Shown: positions 4,437-36,148 of the stretch, in pieces
Position numbering within the stretch: position 1 is the stretch's first letter
How the letters are laid out: each line of letters opens with the position of its first letter
Source: Oscillospiraceae bacterium
GTDB lineage: Bacteria; Bacillota; Clostridia; UBA1381
DNA length: 39,834 bases
Direction of reading: 5' to 3'
Assembly (NCBI GenBank): GCA_022509005.1
Contig: JAFLUC010000015.1
Location: 1 to 39,834, forward strand
Made by a program: the position numbers and the translations under genes
Notes under the pieces: model-generated
What the model was told of the DNA's origin: nothing
The model's database searches: none
Seen by the model: only the letters and a program-made list of their open reading frames with translations

Positions 4437-6431
4437 ATGAATGAAGAGAAAAGAAAGAAACAGGATCCAAAGGGCGGCAAAACTCCGTTTAAAAATCCTT
4501 TGATTATTTTTCTTATTATATCGGTGATTGCAACACTCATACTTAATCTTGCGATCAACTTTATTTCCAATCCGGGAAATAAAGAGATATCATATGATAA
4601 GTTTCTGAATATGCTTGAGGAAAAGGAGGTAGACGAGGTCGTTATAAAAAGCGACAGAATAGTAATATACGGTCAGCCCAAAATAACCGAAGAAAAGGCT
4701 GCTGAGCAGAAAAGCAGATCATTGTTCTCGATCACCGGCTTCGGAGAAAGCGCGGAGGATAAAGTAAAGAACTCCAGACCGACATATTATACGGGATATA
4801 TAAAATATGATGAGATTGTTCCTCTGCTCAATGATAGCGGGATAAAGTTCTCAGCGCCTGTTGATAATTCGAATCCGATCGTGAATTTTGTTATTTCATG
4901 GATACTTCCGCTTGTGTTCATGTATATTATCGTAATGCTCTTTATGCGGTTCATGTCCAAAAAAATGGGCGGCGGCGGACTCATGGGCATAGGTCAGTCA
5001 CACGCGAAAATGTATAATATAGAGAATAAAACGGGTATCACCTTCAAGGATGTGGCAGGTCAGGAGGAGGCAAAGGAATCGCTTGATGAAATTGTTGATT
5101 TCCTGCATAACCCGAGCAAATATACTGAAATAGGCGCAAAACAGCCCAAGGGCGCATTGCTCGTAGGTCCGCCAGGAACAGGTAAAACTTTGCTTGCAAA
5201 GGCGGTAGCCGGAGAGGCGAACGTGCCGTTCTTCTCGCTTTCAGGTTCGGAGTTCGTTGAGATGTTTGTCGGCGTCGGTGCGTCACGAGTACGTGACCTC
5301 TTTAAGCAGGCAAACGCGAAAGCACCATGTATAATATTTATAGACGAGATCGATGCTATCGGAAAATCGAGAGATAATCAGATGTCGTCAAATGACGAAC
5401 GTGAGCAGACTCTGAATCAGCTTCTTGCTGAAATGGACGGCTTTGACCCGTCAAAGGGTATCGTAATACTTGCCGCGACAAACAGACCTGAAATTCTCGA
5501 TAAGGCGCTTCTGCGACCTGGACGATTTGACAGAAGAATTATTGTTGAAAAACCTGATCTGAAAGGCAGAGAGGATATATTACAGGTTCATATAAAGAAC
5601 GTAAAGACAGCCCCTGATGTAGATCTTCACGAAATGGCGCTTGCCACAAGCGGTGCTGCCGGAGCGGATCTTGCAAATATGGTAAATGAAGCCGCCCTGC
5701 GCGCCGTTCGGTTCGGCAGAAAGGCAGTAACCCAAGAGGATCTTATGGATTCTGTTGAGGTTATTATAGCCGGTAAGGAGAAGAAGGACAGAATCTTATC
5801 CGCAGAGGAAAAGAGAATTGTATCGTTCCATGAGGTAGGTCACGCGCTTGCAACGGCGCTTCAGAAGAATACACAGCCTGTACAGAAAATCACTATCGTG
5901 CCGAGGACTATGGGAGCGCTGGGCTATACGATGCAGATGCCGGACGAAGAAGAGAAGTATTTAAACAGCCGAGACGAGCTGCTTGATCAGATAACGGTAT
6001 TTCTTGCCGGACGCGCGGCGGAGGAGCTTGTGTTCAATACCATGACAACCGGCGCTTCAAACGATATTGAGCGCGCAACGGATCTTGCAAGAAAGATGAT
6101 AACAATGTTCGGTATGAGCGAGAAGTTTGGTCTTGTAGGTCTTGAGAGCATTGAAAACAAGTATCTTGACGGCAGAAGCGTGGCGAACTGCTCAGAGGAA
6201 ACAAAAACGGAGATCGACCGTGAGATCGTTAAGATCATGAAGGAACGCTATGAAATAGCAAAGAGCTTGCTGCGGGATAACCGTGACGCGCTTGATGAGA
6301 TCGCAGAGTTCCTTATAGATAAGGAAACGATCACCGGCGACGAGTTCATGGAGATCTTCAATAATGTAAGAGAGAGAAGAGCGCTGATTGCCGAAGCTGA
6401 AACTGAAATGGCGACGGAAACAGAAGAATAA
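4437..6431 (+). CDS. ftsH: ATP-dependent zinc metalloprotease FtsH
   Basis: 664-residue membrane-bound AAA+ protease that degrades misfolded membrane proteins and short-lived regulators. Two N-terminal membrane segments (about 21-44 and 150-172) flank an extracytoplasmic FtsH_ext domain. The AAA module has Walker A GPPGTGKT at 244-251, Walker B IIFIDEID near 299-306 and the second region of homology [19 protein letters not shown] at 347-365. The zinc protease site is HEVGH at 465-469 (H465, E466, H469) with D543 in GASND as the probable third ligand. Length is normal for the family. The ATG follows a GGAGAAGGA ribosome binding site by about 9 nt. It is monocistronic, with its own promoter and a strong terminator at 6442-6474. 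Identification is very secure. Confidence 0.98.
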
Positions 6432-6441
6432 TAAAGAGAAA

Positions 6442-6474
6442 TACCGCTGCTTGTGCAAGCAGCGGTATTTTTTT
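6442..6474 (+). terminator. ftsH rho-independent terminator
   Basis: Near-perfect stem TACCGCTGCTTG / CAAGCAGCGGTA with a tiny loop, followed by TTTTTTT. On the other strand the stem is followed by a weaker T-rich run, so it may also stop transcription from the convergent pectin lyase gene. Confidence 0.9.
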
Positions 6475-6489
6475 GCATATGTATTAATG

Positions 6490-6498
6490 TAGCGTAGA
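6490..6498 (+). repeat. Partial copy 3 of the TAGCGTAGA repeat
   Basis: TAGCGTAGA directly upstream of the GGGGGA ribosome binding site of the 55-codon ORF. The same nine bases end the longer repeats at 11198-11254 and 20778-20804, also immediately before ribosome binding sites. Nine bases alone would be weak; the shared position makes it notable. Confidence 0.4.
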
Positions 6499-6513
6499 AA
6501 TGGGGGAATCAAT

Positions 6514-6681
6514 ATGAAAAAACTGATACTATCAATCATTGCCGTAATATTTATAACGGTAATTATCCCACTCGCAATAGTGGAGCTTGTGCCGCCGCAT
6601 AATAATGCAGCGTCGACCGAGCCGCAACAATCCCGCAGCAGCGATTTTGCTGCTGCGGAATTACAGTTGCGTGGTTGTTAA
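6514..6681 (+). pseudogene. 55-residue single-pass membrane peptide, possible spoIID 5' remnant
   Basis: A short ORF not overlapping other genes except for 4 nt at its end. It has a GGGGGA ribosome binding site and an ATG start. The peptide begins MKKLILSIIAVIFITVIIPL with a single hydrophobic segment, then VPPHNN and a short polar tail. The start resembles the N-terminal anchor of the sporulation protein SpoIID (B. subtilis SpoIID has a similar hydrophobic stretch followed by FQHN), but the catalytic remainder of ~280 residues is missing. The reading frame runs through a CCGCAGCAGC/GCTGCTGCGG hairpin at 6633-6658 and ends at the convergent lyase gene, which suggests truncation by rearrangement. 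It might instead be a genuine small membrane peptide. The SpoIID link rests on resemblance only. Confidence 0.4.
6633..6658. terminator. GC-rich hairpin at the 3' end of the pectin lyase gene
   Basis: Perfect 10-bp stem CCGCAGCAGC / GCTGCTGCGG with a 6-nt loop, 19 nt past the minus-strand stop at 6678. Neither strand carries a proper U-tract after the stem, so it may be a 3'-end protecting hairpin or a weak terminator backed up by the one at 6442-6474. Confidence 0.4.
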
Positions 6682-9600
6682 AGTTCCTGTTTCATCCCAG
6701 ACTCCATCGCCGGGAATATCGGATTCATACCGGCTGTTGAATCCCATGCAAACAGCTTAACCCTGCTGTTTCCTATAGCATTATCAAATGCTATTTCCCC
6801 GGTTTTACTATCACCTGACACAATATTTGAATACGTATCTCCGATCTTAACTGCTTTAAGTATACGACCATCATATAGCGCGCCTATAACCGTAAGATTT
6901 TCAATCGCTGTGCTTGTCGTAATGCTGTAGCTTACAGTTCTACTCGTTACCTTGGTGATTTTAAATTCACTCGCCGGAGTCGGTGTCGGGCTCGGACTCG
7001 GTGTCGGATCCGGCTCAACATACGGCACATACGTTATAACATTGACATTCTTGATTTTGGAAACCTTGCTGTTTATGGTATCAAAGAACTCAATACCGGT
7101 AATCGCTATATCGTCAAGATAAGCAAGATTCTTTCCTTCAAGAAGCGTTGCGCCTGACGCATCTGTGATTTTATACGAAATAGTTTTAGCTTCGGTATCT
7201 ATATCAAGTCTTGTGTGTATATAGTTGTCAAATGCGCTTGATATGCTTCCATAGGTCGTCTTATCCTCATTTACAGTATAGCTCGATGAGTCTACCTGAC
7301 CCTCAACCCATGCGACACCGGTTTTATCATATCCGTTCTTATTTGACGAACCCGGACGCTTTGACGCGTCAACGAGGGCAATTCTTGCTCTTGTGCCATC
7401 CGCAATATTCGAATCAAATTCAACAGAATAGGTTGTTTCATCCTTTACGATTGAGCTTATATCGGCTATCGAGAGTGCGCAGGCATTATTCGCATTCGAC
7501 GCGTTTGTGAATGTGATTTCATTTTCTGAGCCTGAGGCCTGCGAAACAGTTATTCTGCTGTTTTCCTTAAAGTCCGTAACAGCGTGATCAACGGGAGTAG
7601 GCGGCGCTACGTACTTGCCAAGCTCCTTCTTTGTATATGAGAGAGCTTCAATCATAGGAGCCGCTGATATTGTGCCCTCGCCGTTCTTTGTGGTTGATAT
7701 TCTGATCTGCTCAAGACTCAGACCGTTAAGGTCAAACGAAGTTGTGTACTGAGCCTCTATGCCGTCCTCCCATTGATTAGAGGTACCGTAAACGGTTGCG
7801 TTTGCTGTGCTGTTGTCATAATCAAATTCGATATTTAAGACCCAACGCTTTGCACTTCCCTGAACAGATCCTATTTTGTCTATAACCGGATTCCATGTTG
7901 ATGAGAATGATGCCGGGTCATTTGCGCCTATCTTAGTTGTAAGAGCGGCAGCAGATGTTGCATACGGCTGTGTGAAGGTAAGAATATTTCTTCCGTCCTC
8001 GCCGAGAAGCTCTATGTTTAATGAATATTCATGACCGTCCCAGTTCCAGTTCTCTCCATCAATTCTTTGTCCGCCTGTGGTGATATGGCAGTTAAGGATC
8101 GCATGACCGTCTGTAAGCTTTGTTATATTTCTGTGCATTTCTCCGCCTGTGGATGCCTTAGTCTGCGTAAGCGTGCCGCTTATTGCAGTAGCGTTTGAAA
8201 GCACGGTTTCTTTATCTGTATTTGTTGTTACAAATACATCATCGCCTGTAATGTCCTCTGAAACCATAGAAACTACATATACAGTACATTCAGCAGTGGC
8301 GCCGCTGTCGGTTGATTTTGCGGTAATAGTCGCCTTTCCTAATGAAACGCCGTAAACATTGCCCTCGCTGTCAACTGTTGCTACATTCTTATCTGATGAT
8401 GACCAGATAACATCCTGAACCGACGCATTTGCCGGAGCAACCGATGCTGTAAGCTTCTTGGAGTAGTCTAATCCGACGCTCATTGAGTCAGTGGATATCT
8501 TAACGCCCGTAACAGGTGTTGACCATACGGTAACCTCGCAGGTCGCGGTATATCCGCCGTCCTTTGCAATTGCCGTAATCGTTGCTGTGCCGTTGCTTAC
8601 GCCTGTTATTGTACCGCCTGTAACTGTTGCAACCGCCGGGTTTGATGAGGTCCATGTTATACCCTTTTTGGAAGCATTTGCCGGCTCAACCGATGCCGTT
8701 ATCGATACCGACTTTGTCTTTTCAACACTTACGCTTTTATCTGAAATAGATATACCGGTTACCGGAACCTTTTCGCCTGATCCGTATGTTACACTTGTAA
8801 AGAGTGTAGCCGGAGCGAGGTAGTTCATTGTTTTGCCGCTTGAATCCTTTGCAAGAGCTGCTGAACCGATATAGTAGCTCGTATGCGGCGGCTGGTTGTA
8901 TGCTACGTTCTGCCATGCTATGCCGCAGCGGTACTGCGCGTCATGCATGAGAGTTGTAAGTCTGTAATCTGTCGGGAGCGTTGATGTGAAGATTCTGAGA
9001 TACGGACTTTCATTCTGTCCCTTGCCGCCTGCAAGAATGATCTCTTCACGCCAGTCGCCCCAGATGTCTGCCGTAAGCGTAGGCGTGTGCTTTGTTGAGT
9101 TGTTTGATGCGCCTGAAATGTATCCGTTTCCGTCATCGTAGAAACGTGTTGTATATCCTGTTGACGCGTCAAACTTTGCAAGCTGGTTATCGTCAAGCAG
9201 CTCACGACCGAGATCGCCGTCCCAATATACCGTAAAGTTTGTCATACTTCTCGAGCTTGTTGCAGGGTGTGGGATCTCATTGCCGGATGAATCCTTAAGA
9301 TCTTTACCGGTAAGATCGTGTACCCCGGTATGGGATGCGCACCATGCAAGAGCAAGCGCATTTGGATTCTTCAACGCATAAGCGTCGTCAATGTTATCCA
9401 TAACACCGCGGCCGTTATCGGAGGATGATGTCTTCTTCTCGAAAAGTTCCACATAGTTCTTGTCGCCCGCCACTCTGAAGCTGTCCGAACGTGTTTTGAA
9501 ATCATCCTCCTTAACGCTGAATAATTCCTGTTTACCATCGTTGTTAAAATCGCTCAGGTGCATCGCGTCGCCGTGACCGAGGTTTGAGTCGCCAAGGATA

Positions 9601-11272: not shown

Positions 11273-12646
11273 ATGAGTTCTATTATTTTTATAGCTGTTT
11301 TTACCGCATTATTAGGCGGGGCTCTGTGGAAGCTGTATCTGCAGGATGCCGTGAAAAACACAGTAAAACAGCCGGAAAATAAAATATTTATTATAGCAGC
11401 GCTGGCAGCGGGTTTGATAGCTCATATAATATGCGCTGTAGCCTATAAGGGACATTCTACGGATATGGGCTGCTTCAGCGGCTGGTCGGACAGGATATAT
11501 AAAGATGGATTTGCGGCATTTTATGCCTCTGACGGTTTCCATGACTATCCGCCTGGCTACGTTTATATAATGTGGGTTTTAGGCGCGTTTAAGCATATAT
11601 TTAAGCTTCAGGACGGCGCGTCGTTATGGCTTCTTCTTAAAACTCCGGCGATCATAGCTGATCTCGTCATGGGCTGGCTTGTATATAAAATTGCACTCAA
11701 GAAATTTAATTGTGATGTGGCTTCTGTATTTGCGGCTATTGTTGTACTCAATCCCGCATTGATTGTTGACAGCGCATCATGGGGACAGATAGACAGTATT
11801 CTTGCGCTGTTCTGTGTTCTTGCCGTTTACTTTACGGCAGAGCGGAAATTTATCCCTGCGTATTTTGCGTTTGCGGCAGGAGTCCTCATTAAGCCTCAGG
11901 CGGCATTCTTCGCGCCGGTGATCATTTTCGGACTTATAGACGAGTTGTTTATTAAGGAGAAATTCTCGTTTGATCGGCTTCTTAAGCAAGTCGGCTGGGC
12001 GGCGGCTGCGGTTGCGGCTATGTTTATACTGTTCATGCCATTCGGCGATACTCCGATTAATGGTATACGGCTGATACTTGATCAGTATATAAAAACGCTT
12101 GGAGAATACCCTTACATGACCATAAATGCTTTTAATATATACGCCGCAGCCGGAAACAACTGGGAGAAGCTTAACGGCATGGCAAGCTGGTTCGGTTACG
12201 GAATGATGATTATGGTTGTTCTGTACGCTGCATATGTATTCTTTAAGAGCAAGAACCCGTCAAGGCATTATATAGCCGCGTTTATAATATCCTTCGGTAT
12301 ATATATTTTCGGAGTAAAGATGCATGAGCGTTACGCGTTCCCGGGAATATTCATGCTTGTGTTCGCGCTTATAACCATGCCGACGCTTAAGAATTTCATG
12401 ATGTACGGACTTTTCTCGGTCATATCCTTCTTCCAGTTTGCATGGGTGTTGTTTATATATAATCAGGATATAAATAAATACTACAGAACAGTAACAGTAA
12501 TAAACACGTCACTTATCACGATTGCAATATTTGTGATGAGCGTATGCTTCATCCAGAAGGAATACGTCGGATACAGAGAAGAGCATGAGCCGCTTTCAAA
12601 AACAATTGTATCAAAAACAACTGTATCAAAAGGGAGGACTAGCTAA
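11273..12646 (+). CDS. Gpi18-like membrane glycosyltransferase (GT-C fold)
   Basis: 457-residue polytopic membrane protein with about ten or more hydrophobic segments. The first extracytoplasmic loop carries D64 in GHSTDMGCF, the likely catalytic region, and DYPPGY at 91-96; SWGQIDS further on is characteristic of Gpi18-like mannosyltransferases (COG5542). Such enzymes move a sugar from a polyprenyl-phosphate donor to an acceptor on the outer face of the membrane. Donor and acceptor are unknown here. Its stop codon overlaps the next start by one base (TAATG), so it is translationally coupled to the PMT-family gene. The ATG at 11273 is the first in frame after a stop; its spacing from GAGAGGGG is rather long at 12 nt. 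An ATG at 11263 is in another frame and gives only a short peptide. Confidence 0.85.
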   Translation: MSSIIFIAVFTALLGGALWKLYLQDAVKNTVKQPENKIFIIAALAAGLIAHIICAVAYKGHSTDMGCFSGWSDRIYKDGFAAFYASDGFHDYPPGYVYIMWVLGAFKHIFKLQDGASLWLLLKTPAIIADLVMGWLVYKIALKKFNCDVASVFAAIVVLNPALIVDSASWGQIDSILALFCVLAVYFTAERKFIPAYFAFAAGVLIKPQAAFFAPVIIFGLIDELFIKEKFSFDRLLKQVGWAAAAVAAMFILFMPFGDTPINGIRLILDQYIKTLGEYPYMTINAFNIYAAAGNNWEKLNGMASWFGYGMMIMVVLYAAYVFFKSKNPSRHYIAAFIISFGIYIFGVKMHERYAFPGIFMLVFALITMPTLKNFMMYGLFSVISFFQFAWVLFIYNQDINKYYRTVTVINTSLITIAIFVMSVCFIQKEYVGYREEHEPLSKTIVSKTTVSKGRTS

Positions 12647-14706
12647 TGGCAAATAAAAAGCGTAATGCCGCATCGAAAAAGCAAAGCGGCCATAAATTTG
12701 TAACAAGCGCGCCTAAGCTGAAGCTGAGCAAATGGGATTTTATTATAATGGCCGTAATCGTAATTATTTACGGCTTGATAGCATTGTACAACCTCGGAGA
12801 CAAGTTTGCGCCTCAGACTGAGGTTGAGCTGTCCTCGGAAGAGATAACGGCCGATCTCGGTGAAATGAAGAATATTTCCAAGACCTCAATTTATCTGGGA
12901 GCAAGACACCTTGATGATTCAAGAGCAATAGATATTAAATTCTATGATGATAACAACCGTGAGGTGTCATCATCAAGGGTTTCATCAGGCTCTGTTTTCT
13001 GCTGGAATGTGACAAATACAAATGTAAACGCAAGATATGTGTCATTTTCGACACAGAATGTCAGATCGCAAACCGACCCGACAGACAATATATATGTAAA
13101 AGAAATATGCCTGATCGATTCTGACGGAAATAAGATAGAACCGGTGAATGCTGATGATAAAAGTATAGCTCATCTTTTTGACGAGCAGGATTGCTATTCT
13201 GCAACAAAGAACTTCATGACCGGAACATATTTTGATGAAATATATCACGGACGAACCGCATATGAATTCATCAATCATATGACCGTATATGAATGGACGC
13301 ATCCGCCGCTTGGTAAGGTCCTTATCGGATTTGGTATTCTCGCATACGGAATGGTGCCGTTCGGATGGCGAATTGTGGGAACACTGTTCGGAATATTCAT
13401 GGTTCCTTTAATATACCTGTTCGCAAAGCGTATGCTGAAGCATACGTGGCTGGCGGCTGTTATTTGCCTGCTGTTCACGTTTGACTTTATGCATTTCACA
13501 CAGTCGAGAATTTCTACAATTGACGTGTATGTAACATTCTTTATAATGCTCATGTATTATTTCATGTATAAGTATTATAAAATGAGCTTTTATGATACGC
13601 CATTGTGGAAAACACTTGTCCCGCTCGGACTTTCGGGAATATTCTTCGGCTTCTCGGTAGCGAGCAAATGGACTGGTCTTTACGGCGGAGCCGGACTTGC
13701 TCTGATATTTTTCTACACAGTATATGAAAGATGCAGAGAGTATTCATATGCTGCAAAGAATCCAAACGGTGAAACCTCAGGTATATCACATAAGTATGTG
13801 ATAAAGAATTTTGAAAAATATCTGTTTATAACACTCGGCTTCTGCGTAATTATGTTCATCGTAGTTCCTATGTGTATATACGCGTTATCATATATACCAT
13901 ATCTTAAAACTCCGAGCGGACACGGACTTGTTGCAACGATAAGGGATAATGCAAAATCAATGTATACCTATCACAGTAAGACCGTTGCGGCATCGACTCA
14001 CCCGTATTCGTCGCATTGGTTTGAGTGGCCGATAATGTACCGTCCGTTATGGTACTTCTCAAATACAACAGCAGACGGACTGAGACAGGGAATAAGCGCA
14101 TTCGGAAACCCGGCTGTGTGGTGGCTCGGAATAGGCGCGCTCGGATATATAACGGCGCTTGCTATCATAATTCCGCTTAAAAAGCGCAAGTATTACTTTA
14201 TGAACAAATACATCTTTGCCGGTATATACGCGCTTGTGTTTGTGCTTATCTGCACGATCGGCTACACTGCCGGCAAGGCTGATCCGGAAAAGCTGGTAAG
14301 ACTTTTCCCGTGTCTTGTATTCTATTCATCGGTAATGGTGGGAATGTTTTTAATAGTGCTGCTGTTTGATGAATACATCAAGCAGACCTCAAACAAAACA
14401 GCGCTGTTTATATTAATAGGATATTTCTCGGGACTGCTCCCATGGACGCTCGTAGTAAGAACGACATATATTTATCACTATTTCCCGTGTGTGCCGTTCG
14501 TTGTGCTGATGCTCGGATACTCGATCAAGACCTTCTATGACAACACAAGGAGTAAGAAGGCGGTAATAATTGCGTCGGCCATATACGCTGCCGCGGCAAT
14601 AGGGCTGTTTATAATGTTCTATCCTGTTCTTTGCGGTCATCCGATAACAAAAGAATACGGCGTTGAGTGGTTAAAATGGTTCAGATCATGGGTATTGATT
14701 CCTTAA
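12646..14706 (+). CDS. PMT-family (GT39) membrane glycosyltransferase with a luminal insert
   Basis: 686-residue polytopic protein. One membrane helix (about 32-50) precedes an extracytoplasmic domain (about 55-170), then the PMT catalytic loop with the acidic pair D197-E198 in TYFDEIYHGRTA and the family stretch VYEWTHPPLGKVLIGFG. About ten further membrane segments follow, with QSRISTIDVYVTFF and FGFSVASKWTGLYGG typical of protein O-mannosyltransferases. These enzymes use polyprenyl-phosphate mannose or related lipid-linked sugars to glycosylate exported proteins or glycans. The insert between helix 1 and the catalytic loop has the look of a discoidin/galactose-binding jelly roll, which is inference. 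Coupled by a 1-nt overlap to the preceding glycosyltransferase; the pair may glycosylate the surface proteins encoded nearby. Confidence 0.88.
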   Translation: MANKKRNAASKKQSGHKFVTSAPKLKLSKWDFIIMAVIVIIYGLIALYNLGDKFAPQTEVELSSEEITADLGEMKNISKTSIYLGARHLDDSRAIDIKFYDDNNREVSSSRVSSGSVFCWNVTNTNVNARYVSFSTQNVRSQTDPTDNIYVKEICLIDSDGNKIEPVNADDKSIAHLFDEQDCYSATKNFMTGTYFDEIYHGRTAYEFINHMTVYEWTHPPLGKVLIGFGILAYGMVPFGWRIVGTLFGIFMVPLIYLFAKRMLKHTWLAAVICLLFTFDFMHFTQSRISTIDVYVTFFIMLMYYFMYKYYKMSFYDTPLWKTLVPLGLSGIFFGFSVASKWTGLYGGAGLALIFFYTVYERCREYSYAAKNPNGETSGISHKYVIKNFEKYLFITLGFCVIMFIVVPMCIYALSYIPYLKTPSGHGLVATIRDNAKSMYTYHSKTVAASTHPYSSHWFEWPIMYRPLWYFSNTTADGLRQGISAFGNPAVWWLGIGALGYITALAIIIPLKKRKYYFMNKYIFAGIYALVFVLICTIGYTAGKADPEKLVRLFPCLVFYSSVMVGMFLIVLLFDEYIKQTSNKTALFILIGYFSGLLPWTLVVRTTYIYHYFPCVPFVVLMLGYSIKTFYDNTRSKKAVIIASAIYAAAAIGLFIMFYPVLCGHPITKEYGVEWLKWFRSWVLIP

Positions 14707-14727
14707 GAAGAGAGGATTTGACGTAAA

Positions 14728-15570
14728 ATGAGAATAATAAACAGTGAAGAAATAACAAGCGCTGTAAGGGATATGTGCATACAAGCGACATGTCACCTTA
14801 ACAAGGATATAAGAGAAGCGTTTACTAAGGGCATGGAAACCGAAAAATCAGACGTGGCAAAAGGCGTGTTCCGTGACCTGCTCCGCAATGCTGATATAGC
14901 CGACGAGAAGGAGGTCCCTATCTGCCAGGATACAGGAATGGCTGTTTTCTTCATTGAGGTAGGCAAGGACGTATTTGTTGAAGGCGATACGATCACCGAC
15001 GCGATAAACAAAGGCGTTTCAAAGGGCTACACCGAGGGCTATCTGAGAAAATCGGTTGTAAAGGATCCGTTAAACCGCGTCAATACAAAGGACAATACAC
15101 CGGCTGTAATATATTATGACTATGTTCCCGGCGATAAAATTAAAATAATCTTTGCCCCTAAGGGATTCGGAAGTGAAAACAAGGGCGGTCTTAAAATGCT
15201 CAATCCGTCAGATGGCGTAGAGGGCGTTGTAGACTTTGTTGTTGATGTTGTGCGTCATGCGGGGGCAAACCCCTGTCCGCCGATCGTTGTAGGCGTAGGA
15301 ATAGGCGGAACAATGGATAAGGCTGCGGTTCTTTCAAAAAAGGCGCTGACAAGAGATATAACGGAAAGAAATCCGGATCCGTATTATGTCGGGCTTGAAG
15401 AGCTGATTCTTGCAAAGATAAATAAGCTTGGTATCGGTCCGGCAGGTCTTGGCGGCGTAACAACGGCCATGGCGGTAAATATTGAAACGTACCCGACGCA
15501 TATCGCCGGACTTCCGGTTGCCGTTAATATCAACTGTCATGCAGCGCGCCATGCGGTGAAGGTGTTATAA
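14728..15570 (+). CDS. Class I fumarate hydratase, alpha subunit
   Basis: 280-residue N-terminal half of the two-subunit iron-sulfur fumarase (or the related L-tartrate dehydratase), which interconverts fumarate and malate. The three cysteines that bind the [4Fe-4S] cluster are present: C66 in ICQDTG, C183 in HAGANPCPP and C270 in NINCHAARHA. Length is normal for the subunit. The beta subunit, usually the next gene, is absent here; instead an XRE regulator starts within the stop codon (TAATG). It begins 21 nt after the PMT-like gene with an AGAGAGGA ribosome binding site and has no obvious promoter, so it may be read from upstream. Activity would need a beta subunit encoded elsewhere. The family is secure; fumarate rather than tartrate is the likelier substrate but is not proven. 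Confidence 0.9.
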   Translation: MRIINSEEITSAVRDMCIQATCHLNKDIREAFTKGMETEKSDVAKGVFRDLLRNADIADEKEVPICQDTGMAVFFIEVGKDVFVEGDTITDAINKGVSKGYTEGYLRKSVVKDPLNRVNTKDNTPAVIYYDYVPGDKIKIIFAPKGFGSENKGGLKMLNPSDGVEGVVDFVVDVVRHAGANPCPPIVVGVGIGGTMDKAAVLSKKALTRDITERNPDPYYVGLEELILAKINKLGIGPAGLGGVTTAMAVNIETYPTHIAGLPVAVNINCHAARHAVKVL

Positions 15571-16001
15571 TGGCGTGCGGAGAAAGGCTGCGGATGTTCC
15601 GCAAAAGTACGCGGCTTACAATAGCTGAGGCAGCGGATGTGATTGATATATCGGAAAGCTCGCTGGCTCTGTATGAGCGGAACGAAAAGCGTATTCCCAT
15701 ATCGGTTTTTATCAAGCTGTCATGTCTGTACGGGTTTGATGTATTTGATATTATGCATGTATATGAACCGACAGATTTCGACGAGGATATTCCCGCATAT
15801 AACCTTATAGCCGCGCATTGCAGACACCTTATAGCCTGCCGTATAAAGAGCGATACTGCATTCGGGAATACAGATGTACCCGAAGCGTATTATAATGAAT
15901 GCTACAGACAGCTCATACACGAATATGCGTCAAACCCGGAATATTGCGAAGAATTTCCGGGGCTTGACGAGACCGCGCTTCCGGATAAATATTTCGGATA
16001 A
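15570..16001 (+). CDS. XRE-family helix-turn-helix regulator
   Basis: 143-residue protein with an N-terminal Cro/CI-type HTH (about residues 5-60: LRMFRKSTRLTIAEAADVI, then SESSLALYERNEKRIP). The C-terminal ~80 residues are acidic, contain several Cys, His and Tyr, and match no domain I recognise. The ATG shares one base with the fumarase stop codon, which indicates coupled translation. It could regulate the fumarase/glycosyltransferase unit or something distant. The function is inferred from the HTH only. Confidence 0.75.
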   Translation: MACGERLRMFRKSTRLTIAEAADVIDISESSLALYERNEKRIPISVFIKLSCLYGFDVFDIMHVYEPTDFDEDIPAYNLIAAHCRHLIACRIKSDTAFGNTDVPEAYYNECYRQLIHEYASNPEYCEEFPGLDETALPDKYFG

Positions 16002-16014
16002 TTTGAAAAAAGTA

Positions 16015-16043
16015 TTGACAAACGGGCGCGGTTGGTGTATTAT
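16015..16043 (+). promoter_or_regulatory. Promoter of the trp operon
   Basis: Consensus TTGACA (16015-16020), 17-nt spacer, TATTAT (16038-16043). It starts right after the XRE gene and precedes the T-box leader. Confidence 0.85.
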
Positions 16044-16049
16044 ATATTA

Positions 16050-16320
16050 TAATTTAATGAAAATAAACCGTTGAGGCAGAAAAAAGGCAGAGCAGGTCTT
16101 TCCGAGCGAGTGGATTATGGTGTGAGTTCCACAAAGGCTCTCTGAGTAATATGGGCTGCTAAGGGCAGTGTTAAATGCACTGACGCAGGACTCGCGTAAG
16201 AAGTCGGGAGTATAGAGGTACTCTGCTAAGCGCACAGATCATTCTGTGAAACAAGGTGGCACCGCGGATATTATATTCGTCCTTGACAGATATTATAATT
16301 CTGTCAAGGACGTTTTTTAG
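16050..16320 (+). promoter_or_regulatory. tRNA-Trp-responsive T-box leader
   Basis: Classic T-box architecture before trpE. The T-box sequence AAGGTGGCACCGCGG is at 16253-16267 and a strong terminator follows at 16278-16318. In Stem I the base helix AGCAG (16091-16095) pairs with CTGCT (16156-16160), and the 3' strand just before it reads TGG-G, so TGG at 16152-16154 is the likely specifier codon for tryptophan. Uncharged tRNA-Trp should pair with the TGG and with the T-box to favour the antiterminator and switch on the trp genes. The specifier agrees with the genes below, which supports the assignment. Confidence 0.93.
16278..16318 (+). terminator. T-box regulated terminator
   Basis: Perfect 12-bp stem CGTCCTTGACAG / CTGTCAAGGACG with an 11-nt AT-rich loop and TTTTTT tail. 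It is the attenuator of the trp leader, alternative to the antiterminator formed with the T-box sequence. Confidence 0.92.
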
Positions 16321-16343
16321 TTAATTGGAAAGGAGATAATCAT

Positions 16344-17810
16344 ATGAATTATTCACCGGGATTTGAAACAGTAAAGGAGCTTGCGGATACGGGCAAATAC
16401 GATATTGTGCCGGTAAGCTGTGAAATGCTTTCGGATATCTGTACGCCGATCGAGGCTTTGCGGATACTTAAAAACGTATCAAACCACTGCTATATACTCG
16501 AATCTGTTGCAGGTAATGAAAAATGGGGACGTTATACATTTTTAGGCTTTGATCCTAAGCTTGAAATCACTTGCGCGGATGGAAAAATGAAGGTCGGTGA
16601 GCTGAGTATTAAAACAGACAATCCCACAAAGCAGATAAGAGAAATTCTATCAGGATATAGAAGTCCGAAATTTGATTATCTCCCGTCATTTACCGGAGGA
16701 CTTGTGGGATATTTCTCATATGACTATCTCGGCTACAGTGAGCCGGCGGTACGGATGAACGTGAATGATACGGAAAATTTTAAGGATGTTGACCTGATGC
16801 TTTTCGATAAGGTTATAGCCTTTGATAATTACCGTCAGAAAATAATACTTATTGTAAATATGAGCCTTGATGAGCCGGAGTCAAGCTATAACAAAGCGAT
16901 ATTTGAGCTTAATAAGCTGAAGGAATTACTGATACGCGGCGAAAAAAAGACAGGACTTAACGGACATCTTACAGGAGATGTCACGGCGCTTTTCTCGAAA
17001 GAAAAGTTCTGCTCCATGGTTGAAAAGGCAAAGCATTATATAAAGGAAGGCGATATTTTCCAGATAGTTTTGTCAAACCGTCTCGCGGCGCCGTTTGAGG
17101 GAAGCTTATTTGACACTTACAGAATGCTTAGGGTAATAAATCCGTCTCCGTATATGTTCTATTTCTCCGGAACAGATGTTGAAGTGGCGGGAGCGTCACC
17201 GGAAACGCTTGTAAAGCTGGAGGACGGCGTGCTCCACACATTCCCGCTGGCGGGAACAAGACCGAGAGGAAAAACCGAAGCTGAGGATAAAGCCCTTGAA
17301 AAGGAATTACTTGCAGACGAGAAAGAGCTTGCGGAGCATAATATGCTAGTTGACTTGGGCAGAAATGATTTAGGCAGAATAAGTAAATTCGGCACGGTGG
17401 AGGTTGAAAAGCTTCACAGCATAGAAAGGTATTCCCATGTAATGCACATCGGCTCTACCGTAAGAGGCGAAATTAAGGACGAATTTGACGCGCTTGACGC
17501 TGTAAGCGCCGTTCTTCCGGCCGGAACACTTTCCGGCGCGCCGAAAATACGCGCATGTCAGCTAATCGGAGAGCTTGAAGATAATAAGAGAGGAATTTAC
17601 GGCGGCGCGATAGGATATATAGATTTTACCGGAAATCTTGATACATGTATCGCAATACGTATTGCATATAAGAAAAACGGCAAGGTGTTCGTAAGATCAG
17701 GCGCCGGTATTGTTTACGATTCCGTTCCGGAAAAGGAATATCAGGAATGCATCAATAAAGCTGCTGCGGTCATAAATGCGCTCAAATCTGCGGAGGAGAT
17801 GGAATTATGA
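16344..17810 (+). CDS. trpE: Anthranilate synthase component I
   Basis: 488-residue TrpE, which makes anthranilate from chorismate using ammonia delivered by TrpG. The N-terminal region keeps the ILES tryptophan-binding motif (YILESVAGNEKWGRYTFLG), so feedback inhibition is likely. The chorismate-binding domain shows QIVLSNR, GASPETLV, LAGTRPRG, LVDLGRNDLGRI, the HIGSTVRG strand, LPAGTLSGAPKIRA and the C-terminal RSGAGIVYDS. Length is normal. The ATG has an AAAGGAG ribosome binding site after the T-box terminator. First gene of trpEGDCFBA; its end overlaps trpG by 4 nt (ATGA). Confidence 0.97.
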   Translation: MNYSPGFETVKELADTGKYDIVPVSCEMLSDICTPIEALRILKNVSNHCYILESVAGNEKWGRYTFLGFDPKLEITCADGKMKVGELSIKTDNPTKQIREILSGYRSPKFDYLPSFTGGLVGYFSYDYLGYSEPAVRMNVNDTENFKDVDLMLFDKVIAFDNYRQKIILIVNMSLDEPESSYNKAIFELNKLKELLIRGEKKTGLNGHLTGDVTALFSKEKFCSMVEKAKHYIKEGDIFQIVLSNRLAAPFEGSLFDTYRMLRVINPSPYMFYFSGTDVEVAGASPETLVKLEDGVLHTFPLAGTRPRGKTEAEDKALEKELLADEKELAEHNMLVDLGRNDLGRISKFGTVEVEKLHSIERYSHVMHIGSTVRGEIKDEFDALDAVSAVLPAGTLSGAPKIRACQLIGELEDNKRGIYGGAIGYIDFTGNLDTCIAIRIAYKKNGKVFVRSGAGIVYDSVPEKEYQECINKAAAVINALKSAEEMEL

Positions 17811-18385
17811 TACTTTTAATAGACAACTACGACAGCTTTTCATATAACCTGTATCAGTTTGTCGGGGAAATAAATCCCGATATCAGGGTTATACGAAACG
17901 ATGAATTAACAATAGATGAGATCAAGGCTTTAAAGCCGGACCGGATCATTCTTTCACCGGGTCCGGGGCGGCCTGAAAATGCGGGAGTTATTGTTGAATT
18001 GGCGCAAACACTTGCAAAAGAGATCCCGACGCTTGGGGTATGCCTCGGGCATCAGGCAATATGCATGGCATACGGAGCAACCGTAACATATGCAAAGGAG
18101 CTTATGCACGGAAAACAGTCTGAAATCAAGGCGGATATAACAAGCCTTCTCTTTAAAGAATGTCCCGAAAAAATGAAGGTTGCACGGTATCACTCTTTAG
18201 CCGCAGAGGGAAGTACAATTCCAGACTGTCTTGAAATAACAGCAGTGACCGACGACGGCGAGGTTATGGCGGTTCAGCATAAGGAATATCCGATATACGG
18301 CGTGCAGTTTCATCCTGAATCCATCATGACGCCGCAAGGAAAGAAGATGCTTAGAAACTTTATTGGAGGTAGTGATAATGATTAA
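17807..18385 (+). CDS. trpG: Anthranilate synthase component II (glutamine amidotransferase)
   Basis: 192-residue class I glutamine amidotransferase giving ammonia to TrpE. The catalytic triad is C79 in GVCLGHQ, H169 in QFHPE and E171. Oxyanion motif [11 protein letters not shown] is intact. Overlaps trpE by 4 nt and trpD by 8 nt. It is not fused to trpD. A double role in folate synthesis as PabA is possible, as in some Bacillota, but nothing here shows it. Confidence 0.96.
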
Positions 18386-27887: not shown

Positions 27888-28757
27888 TTATCTTGCAACG
27901 AACATCTGAGTCCAGTAAATTGTTCCGTTAGAAGCTGTTGCTGCGCCAACGCCTATTTCTTTAACATTCGCGTTAAGGATATTAGCCCTGTGGCCCGATG
28001 AATTCATCCATGCGTCCATAACAGCCTGCGGTGTTCTTTGGCCGTATGCAATATTTTCCGCCGCAGTTCTGTAGCTTATACCGTTCTTTCTGAGTCTGTC
28101 AAACGGTGAGTTGCCGTCAGGATCGTTGTGGCTGAAATAATTCCTGTTGATCATATCCCGGCTGTGCGCGCGGGCAACATTTGCAAGATCGTCAGCCCAT
28201 GTAAGAGCGTTGAGTCCGTATTCGGCTCTTACCTTGTTTACGAGGTTAAACACCTCAATTTCCATTGCCGATGCGTTTGTGGAAACGGAAGGCGCTTTTG
28301 TCGGAGCGGCAGTAGGTGCTGCCTGTTCAGGCGCCTTTGTCGGAGCAGCAGTAGGAGCTGCTGGTTCAGGCGTTTTTTCCGGCGCTTCCGAAGCCACCGG
28401 AGGTTTAGCAGGTGCCTGGGTGGCTTCGGGCGCTTCGGAGGCTTTGGGCTGCTCTGTTGCAGCCGGATCGGATTTGTCTGTTGAAGTAGAACAATTGAAG
28501 CCGGCACCTTTAAGAATCTCGTTAAGTACGCTGTTCGGAATGGAGCCGCAGTTTATGTAATTAAGAACTGAGCTGTCCGGCGTTATACATTGTCCGTTTA
28601 TGCAAATCTCTTTACTGTCCTTGTTAATTGTAATTGTATTATTGCCGCATTTTGCGGTTATACAATTATTTGACGCTGTGCCGCATGCCGCATATGCAGC
28701 AGGCGACAATGAGGCTATAACAAGCCCCGTAATAAGTAATTTAGAAACCTTTTTCAA
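27888..28757 (-). CDS. Secreted CAP (SCP/YkwD-like) protein with Cys-rich N-terminal domain
   Basis: 289-residue exported protein. Signal peptide to about residue 23 (SPAAYA). A cysteine-rich region with seven Cys (25, 32, 37, 52, 57, 70, 89) follows, then an Ala/Pro/Thr/Glu linker (about 97-160) containing the repeat AAPTAAPTKAPE, and the CAP domain at about 166-289 with VNKVRAEYGLNAL, HSRDM, YFSHNDPDG, AENIAYG and SGHRANILN. The CAP histidines and glutamate are present. Bacterial CAP proteins of the YkwD kind are extracellular, of mostly unknown role. The start codon is TTG (28757-28755), chosen because GGGAGA lies 9-10 nt before it. Own promoter at 28816-28844 and terminator. The Cys-rich part matches no family known to me. 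Confidence 0.87.
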   Translation of the reverse strand: MKKVSKLLITGLVIASLSPAAYAACGTASNNCITAKCGNNTITINKDSKEICINGQCITPDSSVLNYINCGSIPNSVLNEILKGAGFNCSTSTDKSDPAATEQPKASEAPEATQAPAKPPVASEAPEKTPEPAAPTAAPTKAPEQAAPTAAPTKAPSVSTNASAMEIEVFNLVNKVRAEYGLNALTWADDLANVARAHSRDMINRNYFSHNDPDGNSPFDRLRKNGISYRTAAENIAYGQRTPQAVMDAWMNSSGHRANILNANVKEIGVGAATASNGTIYWTQMFVAR

Positions 28758-32469: not shown

Positions 32470-32904
32470 ATGGCTGTTGTTGGCAACATAGTTGAGGGAA
32501 CGATAACGAGCGTAATGGCATTCGGCGCGTTTGTGGATCTCGGTTCAAATGAATCGGGGCTTGTACATATTTCAGAGCTTTCAAATGAATATGTCAAGGA
32601 CATAAACACGTTTGTAAAAAAGGGTGATCGAGTAAAGGTTAAGATCATACGTGTTGATGAAAACGGGAAAATCAGCCTGTCCATGAAGCAGGCGGAGCAA
32701 AAGCAGGAGCGCGTGAAGAAGCAGAAACCGCAAAGAAGCTCGGCACGACCCGACTCATTTGACTGGTCGGCGCGTCAGACGGAGGAGCTGTCTTTTGAAG
32801 ACAAGCTTTCGCGCTTCAAGCATGAGAGCGAGGAAAAGATCCGCGACACGAAAAGGCGCATGGAGAACAAGCGTTCCGGCGGATATTCAAGAAAGGGCTA
32901 TTAA
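32470..32904 (+). CDS. S1 domain RNA-binding protein, YabR-like
   Basis: 144 residues: a single S1 OB-fold (1 to about 73; VGNIVEGTITSVMAFGAFVDL, GLVHISELSNEYVKDINTFVKKGDRVKVKII) and a charged, mostly disordered basic tail. It corresponds to B. subtilis YabR, the gene after divIC; similar proteins bind RNA or the ribosome. The exact role is unknown. A strong terminator at 32932-32972 ends the cluster. Confidence 0.92.
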   Translation: MAVVGNIVEGTITSVMAFGAFVDLGSNESGLVHISELSNEYVKDINTFVKKGDRVKVKIIRVDENGKISLSMKQAEQKQERVKKQKPQRSSARPDSFDWSARQTEELSFEDKLSRFKHESEEKIRDTKRRMENKRSGGYSRKGY

Positions 32905-32931: not shown

Positions 32932-32972
32932 GCGGATAAAATCATATGATTTATGATTTTATCCGCATTTTT
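32932..32972 (+). terminator. Terminator of the yab-divIC cluster
   Basis: Perfect 14-bp stem GCGGATAAAATCAT / ATGATTTTATCCGC, 7-nt loop, then ATTTTT. The first in-frame ATG of the next gene (32946) falls exactly in the loop. Confidence 0.9.
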
Positions 32973-32993
32973 GCAGAAAGAAAGAGTGGTTTT

Positions 32994-35096
32994 TTGAATA
33001 AAACATCGGAAAAAAGCGGGCTGATACTCAGGCTGCGAAATCGTATTATACCGATAACCGGAATGATTATTGTATTTATAATAAGCCTTTCGGTGCTGTA
33101 TCTTGGCGAGCATGTCGGTCTCAGTGACAACGGCGATTTCAGACGCGTGATGCTCGTGAATAATATTGAATATGCCGATGATACTGATTCGCATTATCTT
33201 TTTAAAGAGCATTACAAAATGAACCTGGACGAAAGCAGCTTTGGCGCTGCTGTAGGTTCGGCATGGCATACAAATAATGAGGAGGAAATATATTCCTCGC
33301 CGCATTTCCTTATAATCAAGCTTTCAAAGGAAATGAATATAATCGCAAATGCCATTAGCGGCAGACCGTTTTCGGATTATAATATAATCTATCTGGCACT
33401 GCTGTATATTTTTATGCTTTCAATAGCCGCGGGCGTTATTTTCACATTTTTTGCCGATGCGAAGCCAAGGCTTCAGGGTGCGGTTTTTGTGATGTTTATT
33501 TTTATATTCTGCGACGCGGGATATCTACTGTATTTTAATTCCTTTTACGGCGAGCCGCTTCAATATACGGCGCTTCTGATGCTCGTGTCGTTCGGGATGC
33601 TGATTTATAAGCGCCCGAGCGTGCCGAAGGTGATAGGGTTTTATGTGTCCTTATACTTTTTTGCGGGGGCAAAGCTTGCAAATATCCCGTATTCACTTAT
33701 GGCGGCACTCTTAGGAATATTGATTATGATAATGCGGCGGGACAAGCTGTTCAGAATCGGCGTAATAGCCTGCGCAGTAACGTGTATTGCGGCAATAATA
33801 GGGCTTTACAGCTCAATTCCGGACTGGATGGATAGAGATACAACATATCAGTCGGTATTTTTCGGCATAACAAAGAACAGCGAAGATCCAAAAAAGGATC
33901 TCAGAGAGCTAGGGGTGGATGAAAAATATGCCGTACTCGCCGGAACACACGCGTATATGGACGAGGATGAATACCCGATAGATTTAACAACAGATGAATT
34001 CAAGCACGATTTTTATGATAAGGTTTCGAAAGCTGATGTAACAGCGTTTTATATCAAGCACCCGATACGGCTTGCTAAAGAACTGTGCGTTGCGATAGAG
34101 AATTCAGCGTACATCCGTCCGCCTGTGCTAGGCAACTCCGAAACGGTGCCGATGCAGCTTACCAATAAGTTCAGCGGCTGGTCGAAGCTCAGGGTTGCGC
34201 TGAGGTTTCTATATACGCCGTGGGTTATATTCATGTGCTTTATATCGATAACGGTTTATATGGTGTTTATGAATGTATTCTATATACATAACCATAAGAT
34301 AGAGAGCCCGGAAAGGAAATACATGATATTCTCGCTTGATGTGCTCATAATCGGGCTGTGGATAAATCTGCTGCTGCCGATAATCTGCAACGGCGAGGGG
34401 GATATAGTAAAGCATATGTTCCTGTTCACGAACTGTATCGATATACTGTTTTTCGTATGTGTTCTCATGATAGTGGGGATGAACAGGCGGCAGATTATTA
34501 AATGGGCGGCGGTAATATGCGCGTTTAACTGCTTGTTCTATATACACAAGCCGTATAAGACCGTTAACTTCGGAAGAATAAACGGACAAAGCATACAGTG
34601 GAATATTCTCCGGCGGTATAATGACGGAAGCGTTCTTTTAGTAACGAAAAAATGTATAGGCAGAATGCCGTTTGACAATAATTCAAATGACTGGGAAACG
34701 AGCGAGCTGAGAGAGTGGCTCAATGATGGCTTTATCGATGAGTTCTCCGATGATGAGAATGCGCGTATTATTACAACTGAAAATAAGGTGCCGCTTACTT
34801 ATGAGGACCGTGAAAAGGCAGAGGACGGCGATCATGCCCATTACTGGAACTTTACGCGGTCGCTTTTAAACGATATGGGTGAAAGCGCATACCACTATAC
34901 CGTAGAGGATAAGGTATATATACCGACTCTTGATATGATGAAGGATATTGACGCTCCCGATTCATACTGGATATTATGTCCGTACACATCAAATGACTAT
35001 ATGCAGCGGTTCCTTAACCGCGACGGCTTCGGTCTTCATACAGACGTAAGGAACGAGCAGGGAGTAAGAGCGGTAATTCGTGTTAAACTAAACTAA
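32994..35096 (+). CDS. WsfD-like membrane glycosyltransferase fused to a DUF6273-like domain
   Basis: About 700 residues. The N-terminal ~530 residues are a polytopic membrane protein with some ten segments and the sequence LGEHVGLSDNGDFRRVM after the first helix, a pattern I associate with the WsfD family of glycan-building hexose transferases (GT-C like). The last ~170 residues (starting WNILRRYNDGSVLLVTKK, with WETSELREWLNDGFIDEFS and YWILCPYTSND) look like DUF6273, a domain usually found in secreted or membrane-bound clostridial proteins. The fusion would place that domain next to the membrane; which side is unclear. Start: the in-frame ATG at 32946 lies in the loop of the upstream terminator, so the TTG at 32994 (weak GAGTGG site 4 nt before) is my choice. 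The true start is uncertain. Family assignment of the first part is moderate, of the second good. Confidence 0.7.
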   Translation: MNKTSEKSGLILRLRNRIIPITGMIIVFIISLSVLYLGEHVGLSDNGDFRRVMLVNNIEYADDTDSHYLFKEHYKMNLDESSFGAAVGSAWHTNNEEEIYSSPHFLIIKLSKEMNIIANAISGRPFSDYNIIYLALLYIFMLSIAAGVIFTFFADAKPRLQGAVFVMFIFIFCDAGYLLYFNSFYGEPLQYTALLMLVSFGMLIYKRPSVPKVIGFYVSLYFFAGAKLANIPYSLMAALLGILIMIMRRDKLFRIGVIACAVTCIAAIIGLYSSIPDWMDRDTTYQSVFFGITKNSEDPKKDLRELGVDEKYAVLAGTHAYMDEDEYPIDLTTDEFKHDFYDKVSKADVTAFYIKHPIRLAKELCVAIENSAYIRPPVLGNSETVPMQLTNKFSGWSKLRVALRFLYTPWVIFMCFISITVYMVFMNVFYIHNHKIESPERKYMIFSLDVLIIGLWINLLLPIICNGEGDIVKHMFLFTNCIDILFFVCVLMIVGMNRRQIIKWAAVICAFNCLFYIHKPYKTVNFGRINGQSIQWNILRRYNDGSVLLVTKKCIGRMPFDNNSNDWETSELREWLNDGFIDEFSDDENARIITTENKVPLTYEDREKAEDGDHAHYWNFTRSLLNDMGESAYHYTVEDKVYIPTLDMMKDIDAPDSYWILCPYTSNDYMQRFLNRDGFGLHTDVRNEQGVRAVIRVKLN

Positions 35097-35116: not shown

Positions 35117-36148
35117 ATGGAAACGAGAATTCTCGGAACAGATGACAATTCAATAAAGGAAGCCGGAGAAATCATTGCCCGCGGCGGACTTATCGCGTTC
35201 CCTACAGAAACGGTTTACGGTCTTGGCGGCAATGCGTTCAACGGCGACTCGGTAAAGAAGATATATACGGCGAAGGGCAGACCGTCGGATAATCCGCTTA
35301 TTGTACATATTGCGGATATTTCGGAGCTTGACGCTCTTGTTAGAGAGATAAGCGATAAGGCAAGCGCTCTCATTCATGCGTTCATGCCCGGACCGTTTAC
35401 GATAATTCTTAAAAAGAGTGACAAGATTCCCGAAGAGGTAACGGCGGGGATGGATACGGTTGCGGTACGCTTTCCCGAAAATGCAGTGGCGCAGCGTTTG
35501 ATAAAATCGGCAGGAGTGCCGGTCGCGGCACCGAGCGCAAATTTATCGGGTAAGCCAAGCCCCACAAAGGCGAAGCATGTTATTACAGATATGACAGGCA
35601 GGATCGACGCGATAATAGACGGCGGCGACAGCGATGTGGGTGTGGAATCTACCATAGTTGACGCCTCGCGTGATATTCCTGTTCTGCTGCGCCCGGGCGG
35701 CATTACATATGAAATGATATGTGACGTTGTGCCGGAAACGGTGATTGACCCGCATATTTTAGAGTCCTTGAAGGCGGATGAAAAGCCGCTTTGCCCGGGG
35801 ATGAAGTACAAGCATTATGCGCCCGATGCCGAGGTTACGGTTATTGAGGGTGACATGGCAGCGGTTAAAGCCGAGATAGATAAGCGGCTAAAGGAGCATA
35901 GCGGCAGAATATGCGGCGTGCTCACAATGAGCGAAAACTGCTATGACAGCGCCGTTATACTTCACGGCGGCATGACAAACAAGGAATACGCAAAAAATCT
36001 TTTTGCGTGTCTCAGGAAATTTGATGAGCTTGGCGTTGAGATCGTGTATGCCGAGTTTGAGAACCGCGACGGATACGGGCTTGCAATACGCAATCGTCTG
36101 TATAAAGCAGCTTCGCAAAGAATAATTCACGTAAACACGGAGGAATGA
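35117..36148 (+). CDS. Threonylcarbamoyl-AMP synthase (Sua5/YwlC type)
   Basis: 343 residues: YrdC domain (about 1-200) plus the C-terminal Sua5 domain. It forms threonylcarbamoyl-AMP from threonine, bicarbonate and ATP, the first step of tRNA t6A37. Visible signatures are GLIAFPTETVYGLGGNA, YTAKGRPSDNPLIVHI, MPGPFTIIL, VAVRFPENAVA and APSANLSGKPSPTKA; the linker CPGMKYKHYAPDAEV joins the second domain. TsaD, the final enzyme, is encoded three genes on. Overlaps an ATGA upstream of the next start. RBS GAAGGA. Confidence 0.95.
   Translation: METRILGTDDNSIKEAGEIIARGGLIAFPTETVYGLGGNAFNGDSVKKIYTAKGRPSDNPLIVHIADISELDALVREISDKASALIHAFMPGPFTIILKKSDKIPEEVTAGMDTVAVRFPENAVAQRLIKSAGVPVAAPSANLSGKPSPTKAKHVITDMTGRIDAIIDGGDSDVGVESTIVDASRDIPVLLRPGGITYEMICDVVPETVIDPHILESLKADEKPLCPGMKYKHYAPDAEVTVIEGDMAAVKAEIDKRLKEHSGRICGVLTMSENCYDSAVILHGGMTNKEYAKNLFACLRKFDELGVEIVYAEFENRDGYGLAIRNRLYKAASQRIIHVNTEE

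Follow-up and report, generated by a model that had tools for sequence, protein, structure and literature searches.

The window, the whole 39,834-nucleotide stretch of Oscillospiraceae bacterium DNA analysed here, carries on its forward strand a gene whose longest open frame (32946 to 35096) encodes 716 amino acids. The following features lie at this locus:

32470 to 32904, forward strand: upstream neighbour, S1 RNA-binding domain protein (Pfam).
32932 to 32966, forward strand: terminator-like hairpin of 15 pairs with a T-rich tail, 3′ of the S1-domain gene and spanning the upstream ATGs.
32946 to 35096, forward strand: WsfD-DUF6273 fusion, longest frame (open reading frame and domain profiles), with a probable true start at TTG 32994.
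33063 to 34463, forward strand: WsfD (GT-C) part, residues 40-506 (profile E 2.4e-99; GT-C structural neighbours).
33126 to 33146, forward strand: first outer loop motif D-N-G-D-F-R-R, residues 61-67, with D64 and R67 invariant in 56/56 aligned sequences.
34389 to 34418, forward strand: N-G-E-x-D-x-x-K-H-M motif, residues 482-491, with K489 and H490 invariant in the same alignment (56/56).
34491 to 34547, forward strand: last transmembrane helix, residues 516-534, the extra helix that goes with DUF6273 (hydropathy and topology comparison).
34551 to 35093, forward strand: DUF6273 domain, modelled as C-type-lectin-like, residues 536-716 (Pfam match 560-714; profile and structure comparison).
34983 to 35009, forward strand: residues 680-688 in the C-terminal part of the DUF6273 domain (conservation of Y680 and R688).
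35117 to 36148, forward strand: downstream neighbour, Sua5 threonylcarbamoyl-AMP synthase (Pfam).

The ATG at 32946 sits within the strong terminator-like hairpin (-21.6 kcal/mol, z -6.5), and in 4 of 16 relatives (L019, L022, L031, and L011) the frame is interrupted by a stop codon immediately ahead of the equivalents of window residues 12, 12, 15, and 17, respectively. These two observations make TTG 32994, which corresponds to residue 17 of the 716-residue frame and is the start given in the first-pass annotation, the probable true start.

The fusion gene is set among housekeeping and sporulation-type genes, without a glycan cluster around it. By Pfam, MazG, HU, YabP, YabQ, DivIC, and S1-domain genes lie 5′, and Sua5, a low-molecular-weight phosphatase, a GNAT acetyltransferase, and TsaD lie 3′. 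A Sua5 homolog occurs within two genes of the fusion in 34 of the 41 nearer named loci and an S1-domain homolog in 26 of them, so the gene position is an old one in the window’s clade; elsewhere the position differs. At 11273-14706 the window also encodes two adjoining GT-C-like proteins, one GT87/ALG6-ALG8-like (457 amino acids) and one PMT-like (686 amino acids); residues 64-133 of the latter resemble a galactose-binding domain at a score below threshold, and the protein falls far under the NCBIfam Pmt cut-off. Positions 27888-28757 encode a CAP-domain protein whose linker is rich in proline and alanine and which, judged by eye, has a signal peptide.

The frame had initially been read as a single-frame fusion of a WsfD-like membrane glycosyltransferase and a DUF6273-like domain, with a domain search proposed for both parts, and the profiles uphold both family names. 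The WsfD profile NF051875.1 (NCBIfam) matches residues 40-506 with 333.1 bits (E 2.4e-99), above its curated cut-off of 80 bits, while DUF6273 (Pfam PF19789.6) matches residues 560-714 with 42.7 bits (E 7.3e-11) in the whole protein and 48.1 bits when the C-terminal part is searched alone, above a gathering cut-off of 23.5 bits. With both profiles over their cut-offs in one frame, the fusion is confirmed. A sequence search of the PDB with the window protein gave no match at E values up to 10. In PHROGs, the GT-C part had no match at 0.01 and the DUF6273 domain hit only one unknown family, along with a weak Hoc-like match; among viral contigs, 28 pattern matches were found and none was confirmed by tblastn.

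The full-length model, built with 56 sequences, has a pLDDT of 91.3 and a pTM of 0.90. Foldseek places 9qa6 first (E 4.7e-8), followed mostly by GT-C enzymes (STT3, EmbB, ALG9, PMT, ArnT, and AftA) with E values from 0.007 up. VIA-align likewise returns 9qa6, whose residues 37-285 match residues 535-716 of the window protein with Z 22.3. GT-C rows (STT3, PMT, AftB, ArnT, AftA, and Emb) then make up the majority of the higher ranks, at Z 8.4-12.6; exportins and other unrelated helical proteins appear from Z 9.8 down. Since VIA-align Z values below 8, or below about 13 for helical bundles, may reflect a mere common arrangement, and all GT-C rows and most C-type-lectin rows fall under these lines, the GT-C and lectin assignments are carried by the WsfD and DUF6273 profile matches and by 9qa6. 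The nine-plus-two helices and the D64-bearing outer loop also agree with the GT-C pattern of 7-13 transmembrane helices and an acidic loop after the first. By its predicted fold, the N-terminal part probably groups with GT-C enzymes.

Modelled alone, the C-terminal domain reaches a pLDDT of 96.5 and aligns with residues 38-285 of 9qa6 at Z 22.3 (rmsd 1.8, 180 residues aligned). The latter is the T. ramosa IgA peptidase, in which residues 31-322 are named DUF6273 (PMC12402451), and the domain model thus has the same fold as a solved DUF6273. Legionella Lcl-CTD follows at Z 8.8, and C-type lectins and their relatives at Z 6.7-8.3, most of them close to the caution value of 8; protein binders with C-type-lectin-like folds and phage DUF6273 proteins are also among the matches. 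A published DALI comparison of phage DUF6273 likewise pointed to C-type lectins (PMC10743442). The comparison with lectins that had been suggested earlier accordingly identifies the C-terminal part, at the level of the model, as a C-type-lectin-like domain. Classic calcium-dependent C-type lectins are marked by EPN/QPD and WND motifs and by conserved disulfides. Assignment to this classic group was rejected: EPN/QPD-type triplets occur in 2 of 40 fused domains and WND in 0 of 40, and the best cysteine column holds 10 of 40. Lcl-CTD, though without classic disulfides and calcium/carbohydrate motifs, binds glycosaminoglycans (PMC11162425).

Nine transmembrane helices are predicted from hydropathy, and the model shows another two in the 203-242 region, for a total of eleven. 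With the topology anchored on a positively charged N-terminus inside, the D64 loop, the long loop at 287-426, the loop bearing the KH motif, and DUF6273 are predicted to face outside. Downstream of the KH motif, all 32 uncut unfused WsfDs have one predicted transmembrane helix (three more unfused-looking rows, cut by contig ends, were left out of this set), whereas among 79 fused WsfDs there are two such helices in 77, one in 1, and three in 1. The extra helix that accompanies the domain turns DUF6273 to the outside, so that, as far as topology can be read from sequence, the domain should lie outside the membrane.

Within the window’s GTDB family, 47 of the 70 genomes match the window protein at 1e-5, and in 42 of them, including 16/16 of the genus, a single match begins close to the N-terminus and covers everything up to the end of DUF6273. 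Wider sampling detected WsfD in 41 of the 77 genomes sampled across the order and in 53 of the 392 sampled across the class. Fragments aside, the WsfD frames come in two sizes, about 450-560 or about 690-820 amino acids, and DUF6273 scores over its cut-off in all 16 long proteins scanned, which represent nine family codes. It is missing in the four others scanned, three short frames and an interrupted copy in L097. At this last locus (5428-7520) a fusion copy is split across two overlapping frames, either interrupted or affected by a sequencing error, and its second short frame does carry DUF6273. Both WsfD forms coexist in some genomes (for example, G014, G258, G309, G368, and G443). In the named-genome collection, which shares contigs with the GTDB-family collection so that the two surveys are not independent, a profile built here finds the domain in 73 of 78 loci (the best 80 of 265 relatives); of the five domain-less loci, three (L169, L171, and L183) are truncated at contig ends and two (L209 and L210) are unfused. 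Fusion loci also occur in Paenibacillus (two), Sedimentibacter, and Vallitalea among the best-scoring named loci, and the close relatives include Candidatus Ornithomonoglobus as well as Clostridia. The search for further fusions that had been called for was therefore productive, and the WsfD-DUF6273 pairing is common to many gut and soil Firmicutes. Viewed from the domain’s side, DUF6273 occurs in 50 of 147 class genomes, with 9 of 103 matches falling by position in WsfD frames.

Two simpler accounts were rejected: a chance or frame artefact, since the same fusion recurs across many genera, and confinement to the window’s clade, since 14 of the 16 long proteins come from other family codes and two loci are in Paenibacillus. 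A search of one open library for literature treating DUF6273, glycosyltransferases, and membranes together did not find the fusion.

Nine residues are invariant in all 56 aligned sequences: D64, R67, D190, Y196, S199, E203, K243, K489, and H490. The first outer loop motif (residues 61-67) is a candidate catalytic site. Within DUF6273, fused domains have Tyr at 680 in 38 of 40 and Arg at 688 in 39 of 40, while the equivalent residues are found in 2 of 15 and 4 of 15 unfused domains; the fused rows are the best-scoring matches of one scan, and the unfused ones come from 35 loci searched with the fused-domain profile (17 stretches longer than 90 residues, 15 of them longer than 150). Mean identity over the hairpin is modestly higher in fused than in unfused rows (0.46 versus 0.34) and is 0.37 in both for the N-terminal half. 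In the phage proteins targeted by diversity-generating retroelements (DGRs), the variable regions fall in the C-terminal part of DUF6273 (PMC11792537), where residues 680 and 688 lie, and the part of the domain that phages vary thus stays conserved in the enzyme. We consider residues 680-688 a candidate ligand site.

When the fused/unfused label is mapped on a 109-row WsfD tree, two changes suffice, compared with a mean of 28 for shuffled labels. The unfused L209 and L210 branch inside the fused side, fused groups flank the remaining 30 unfused rows, and L075 sits on an unresolved fork. The tree is unrooted and therefore fits gain and loss of DUF6273 equally; with its two label changes, it lends no support to a single dated fusion event. 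In a tree of the domain alone, a single branch (support 90/94, recovered in 86% of 200 bootstrap trees) separates the 40 fused from the 15 unfused copies. Across 55 proteins (1485 non-independent pairs), pairwise identity in one half of the protein correlates with that in the other (Spearman coefficient 0.70). Taken together, these sequence comparisons indicate that the GT-C and DUF6273 parts have largely been inherited together.

GtrA-like and/or GT2 (GtrB-like) genes lie within two genes of WsfD in 12 of 37 distant loci, a set that includes the unfused L209 and L210 and in which only 27 loci have two genes on both sides; some of the twelve are close kin (L191/L197/L202 and L206/L208). By type, GT2 enzymes of one cluster occur in 10 of the 37 loci and GtrA-like genes in 9, and 25 have neither within this distance. 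Pfam recognizes Glycos_transf_2 in the four GT2 neighbors scanned and GtrA_DPMS_TM in the four GtrA neighbors scanned. At unfused loci, clear GT2/GtrA-type matches lie near WsfD in 3 of 21 (L114, L122, and L123). Elsewhere in the window genome, on contigs other than that of the fusion, are three homologs of the cassette’s GT2 enzyme, two of them on contig C94, and two GtrA homologs, one of them on C94. Such partner genes are in line with the synthase-flippase-transferase scheme described for GtrABC and for GT136 (PMC11127046).

The window’s own protein is the sole WsfD over the cut-off in its genome, in which four further DUF6273 matches also exceed theirs (L002, L003, L004, and L005). Contig C94 (L009, L212, L214, and L215), with its GtrA match and two GT2 homologs, additionally holds a weak WsfD match of 28.9 bits in a 688-residue frame and is a possible second sugar-decoration locus. 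At L206 and L208, the GT2 frame right before the fusion is 543-555 amino acids long, and in L208 the GT2 domain begins at residue 231. The two Paenibacillus fusions, L186 and L188, each have a frame of the same cluster two genes upstream on the opposite strand; in L188 this frame encodes a phosphodiester glycosidase (NAGPA).

We propose, with a probability of roughly 60%, that the WsfD-family GT-C part moves a polyprenyl-phosphate-linked hexose to a surface polymer while the outside DUF6273 domain holds the acceptor near the active site. The GT-C part would take the hexose from its polyprenyl-phosphate carrier at the external face of the membrane and join it to a cell-surface polymer; DUF6273, placed outside after the eleventh and last helix, would serve as a built-in C-type-lectin-like carbohydrate-binding module that keeps the acceptor polymer close by. 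This proposal builds on what the computation yields directly, namely the two families, the folds, the domain-linked extra helix, the conservation of the pair, and GtrA/GtrB neighbors in some genomes; the donor sugar, the acceptor, and acceptor binding by DUF6273 are what we infer. Branching glucose in the P. alvei S-layer glycan is reported to depend on WsfH and WsfD, the latter read as a lipid-carrier transferase (PMC2943079), and in the GT-C enzyme EmbC a C-terminal lectin-like CBM binds the acceptor and matters for activity (PMC3044687). The CBM of the GT136 enzyme ORF12 binds the backbone and was non-essential under the conditions tested (PMC11127046), and by analogy the role of DUF6273 in the window enzyme is likely auxiliary.

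Binding or handling of a surface glycan by DUF6273, as first suggested, is favored by the lectin-like fold and the outside topology. The accompanying statement that the domain has no known function needs qualifying, given that phage DUF6273 has been modelled as C-type-lectin-like DGR targets (PMC10743442, PMC11792537). Within the portions of the literature consulted, which included PMC10743442, PMC11792537, and PMC12402451, no DUF6273 ligand was found.

DUF6273 might instead be an outer structural or assembly domain that stabilizes the enzyme or binds a partner protein and no glycan. The phage proteins are proposed receptor binders of open ligand type (PMC10743442, PMC11792537), protein binders occur among the matched C-type-lectin-like folds, and in ThomasA the N-terminal DUF6273 and the C-terminal domains had no significant effect on catalytic efficiency, with stability, regulation, or localization suggested for DUF6273 (PMC12402451). 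The contrast at Tyr680 and Arg688 between fused and unfused domains argues for a fixed ligand, which could also be a protein, and acceptor-binding CBMs occupy the same position in other GT-C enzymes; on balance, we regard a structural or assembly role as unlikely. Compatible with any of these readings of the domain is a different substrate for the N-terminal part, which might modify proteins or lipids or use a donor other than polyprenyl-phosphate hexose, as the protein glycosyltransferases STT3 and PMT among the nearest solved folds could suggest; the WsfD profile match and the GtrA/GtrB-type neighbors in the distant loci render this improbable. That DUF6273 binds a glycan such as a secondary wall polymer to place or anchor the enzyme, without presenting the acceptor, would suit its predicted outer location, its lectin-like fold, and the GLUG-repeat/SLH protein three genes downstream of the fusion in L177, with relatives in L178 and L179, but unfused WsfDs manage without the domain and we consider anchoring very improbable. 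The L177 protein itself (11980-18144; 2055 amino acids) combines GLUG repeats with an SLH domain, and frames of its BLAST cluster are also found in L140, L178, and L179.

If DUF6273 does hold the acceptor, a concrete, testable role is offered for a widespread domain without an assigned function, a C-type-lectin-like fold is added to the known design of GT-C enzyme plus binding module, and a surface-decorating enzyme of Firmicutes is linked to a domain that their phages hypermutate. At the speculative end, and with little weight placed on it, the enzyme and the phages might apply the same lectin-like domain to the same polymer, the host with a fixed site and the phages with hypermutable copies that recognize the decorated polymer. 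On this view, what the enzyme modifies would be a phage receptor, and the host domain would provide a key to the ligands of phage DUF6273.

Among characterized systems, P. alvei WsfD shares its name with the NCBIfam family matched by the GT-C part and has a proposed lipid-carrier hexose donor (PMC2943079). Beyond residue 506, where the profile match stops, the window protein continues with the last helix and DUF6273. GT136 ORF12 from Citrobacter youngae is likewise a GT-C enzyme with an outer C-terminal acceptor-binding CBM after its eleventh helix, and its D31 and E34, needed for activity, have the same i, i+3 spacing as D61 and D64 in the window protein; its CBM, however, is immunoglobulin-like and it transfers a pentofuranose, whereas the window domain is modelled as C-type-lectin-like (PMC11127046). 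EmbC from Mycobacterium tuberculosis also joins a GT-C part to an acceptor-binding C-terminal lectin-like domain, but differs in its two subdomains, its CBM fold, and its donor (PMC3044687). O-antigen glucosylation by GtrABC involves the same proposed parts, a GT2 synthase, a GtrA flippase, and a GT-C transferase (PMC11127046). Unlike in that system, the GT2 and GtrA homologs of the window genome lie on contigs apart from the transferase. The Gtr GT-C enzyme belongs to another family. Finally, tentaclins and other phage DGR targets share with the window domain both the Pfam family DUF6273 and the C-type-lectin-like fold (PMC10743442, PMC11792537), yet they are virion proteins in which the C-terminal DUF6273 part is hypermutated, whereas that of the window enzyme is conserved.
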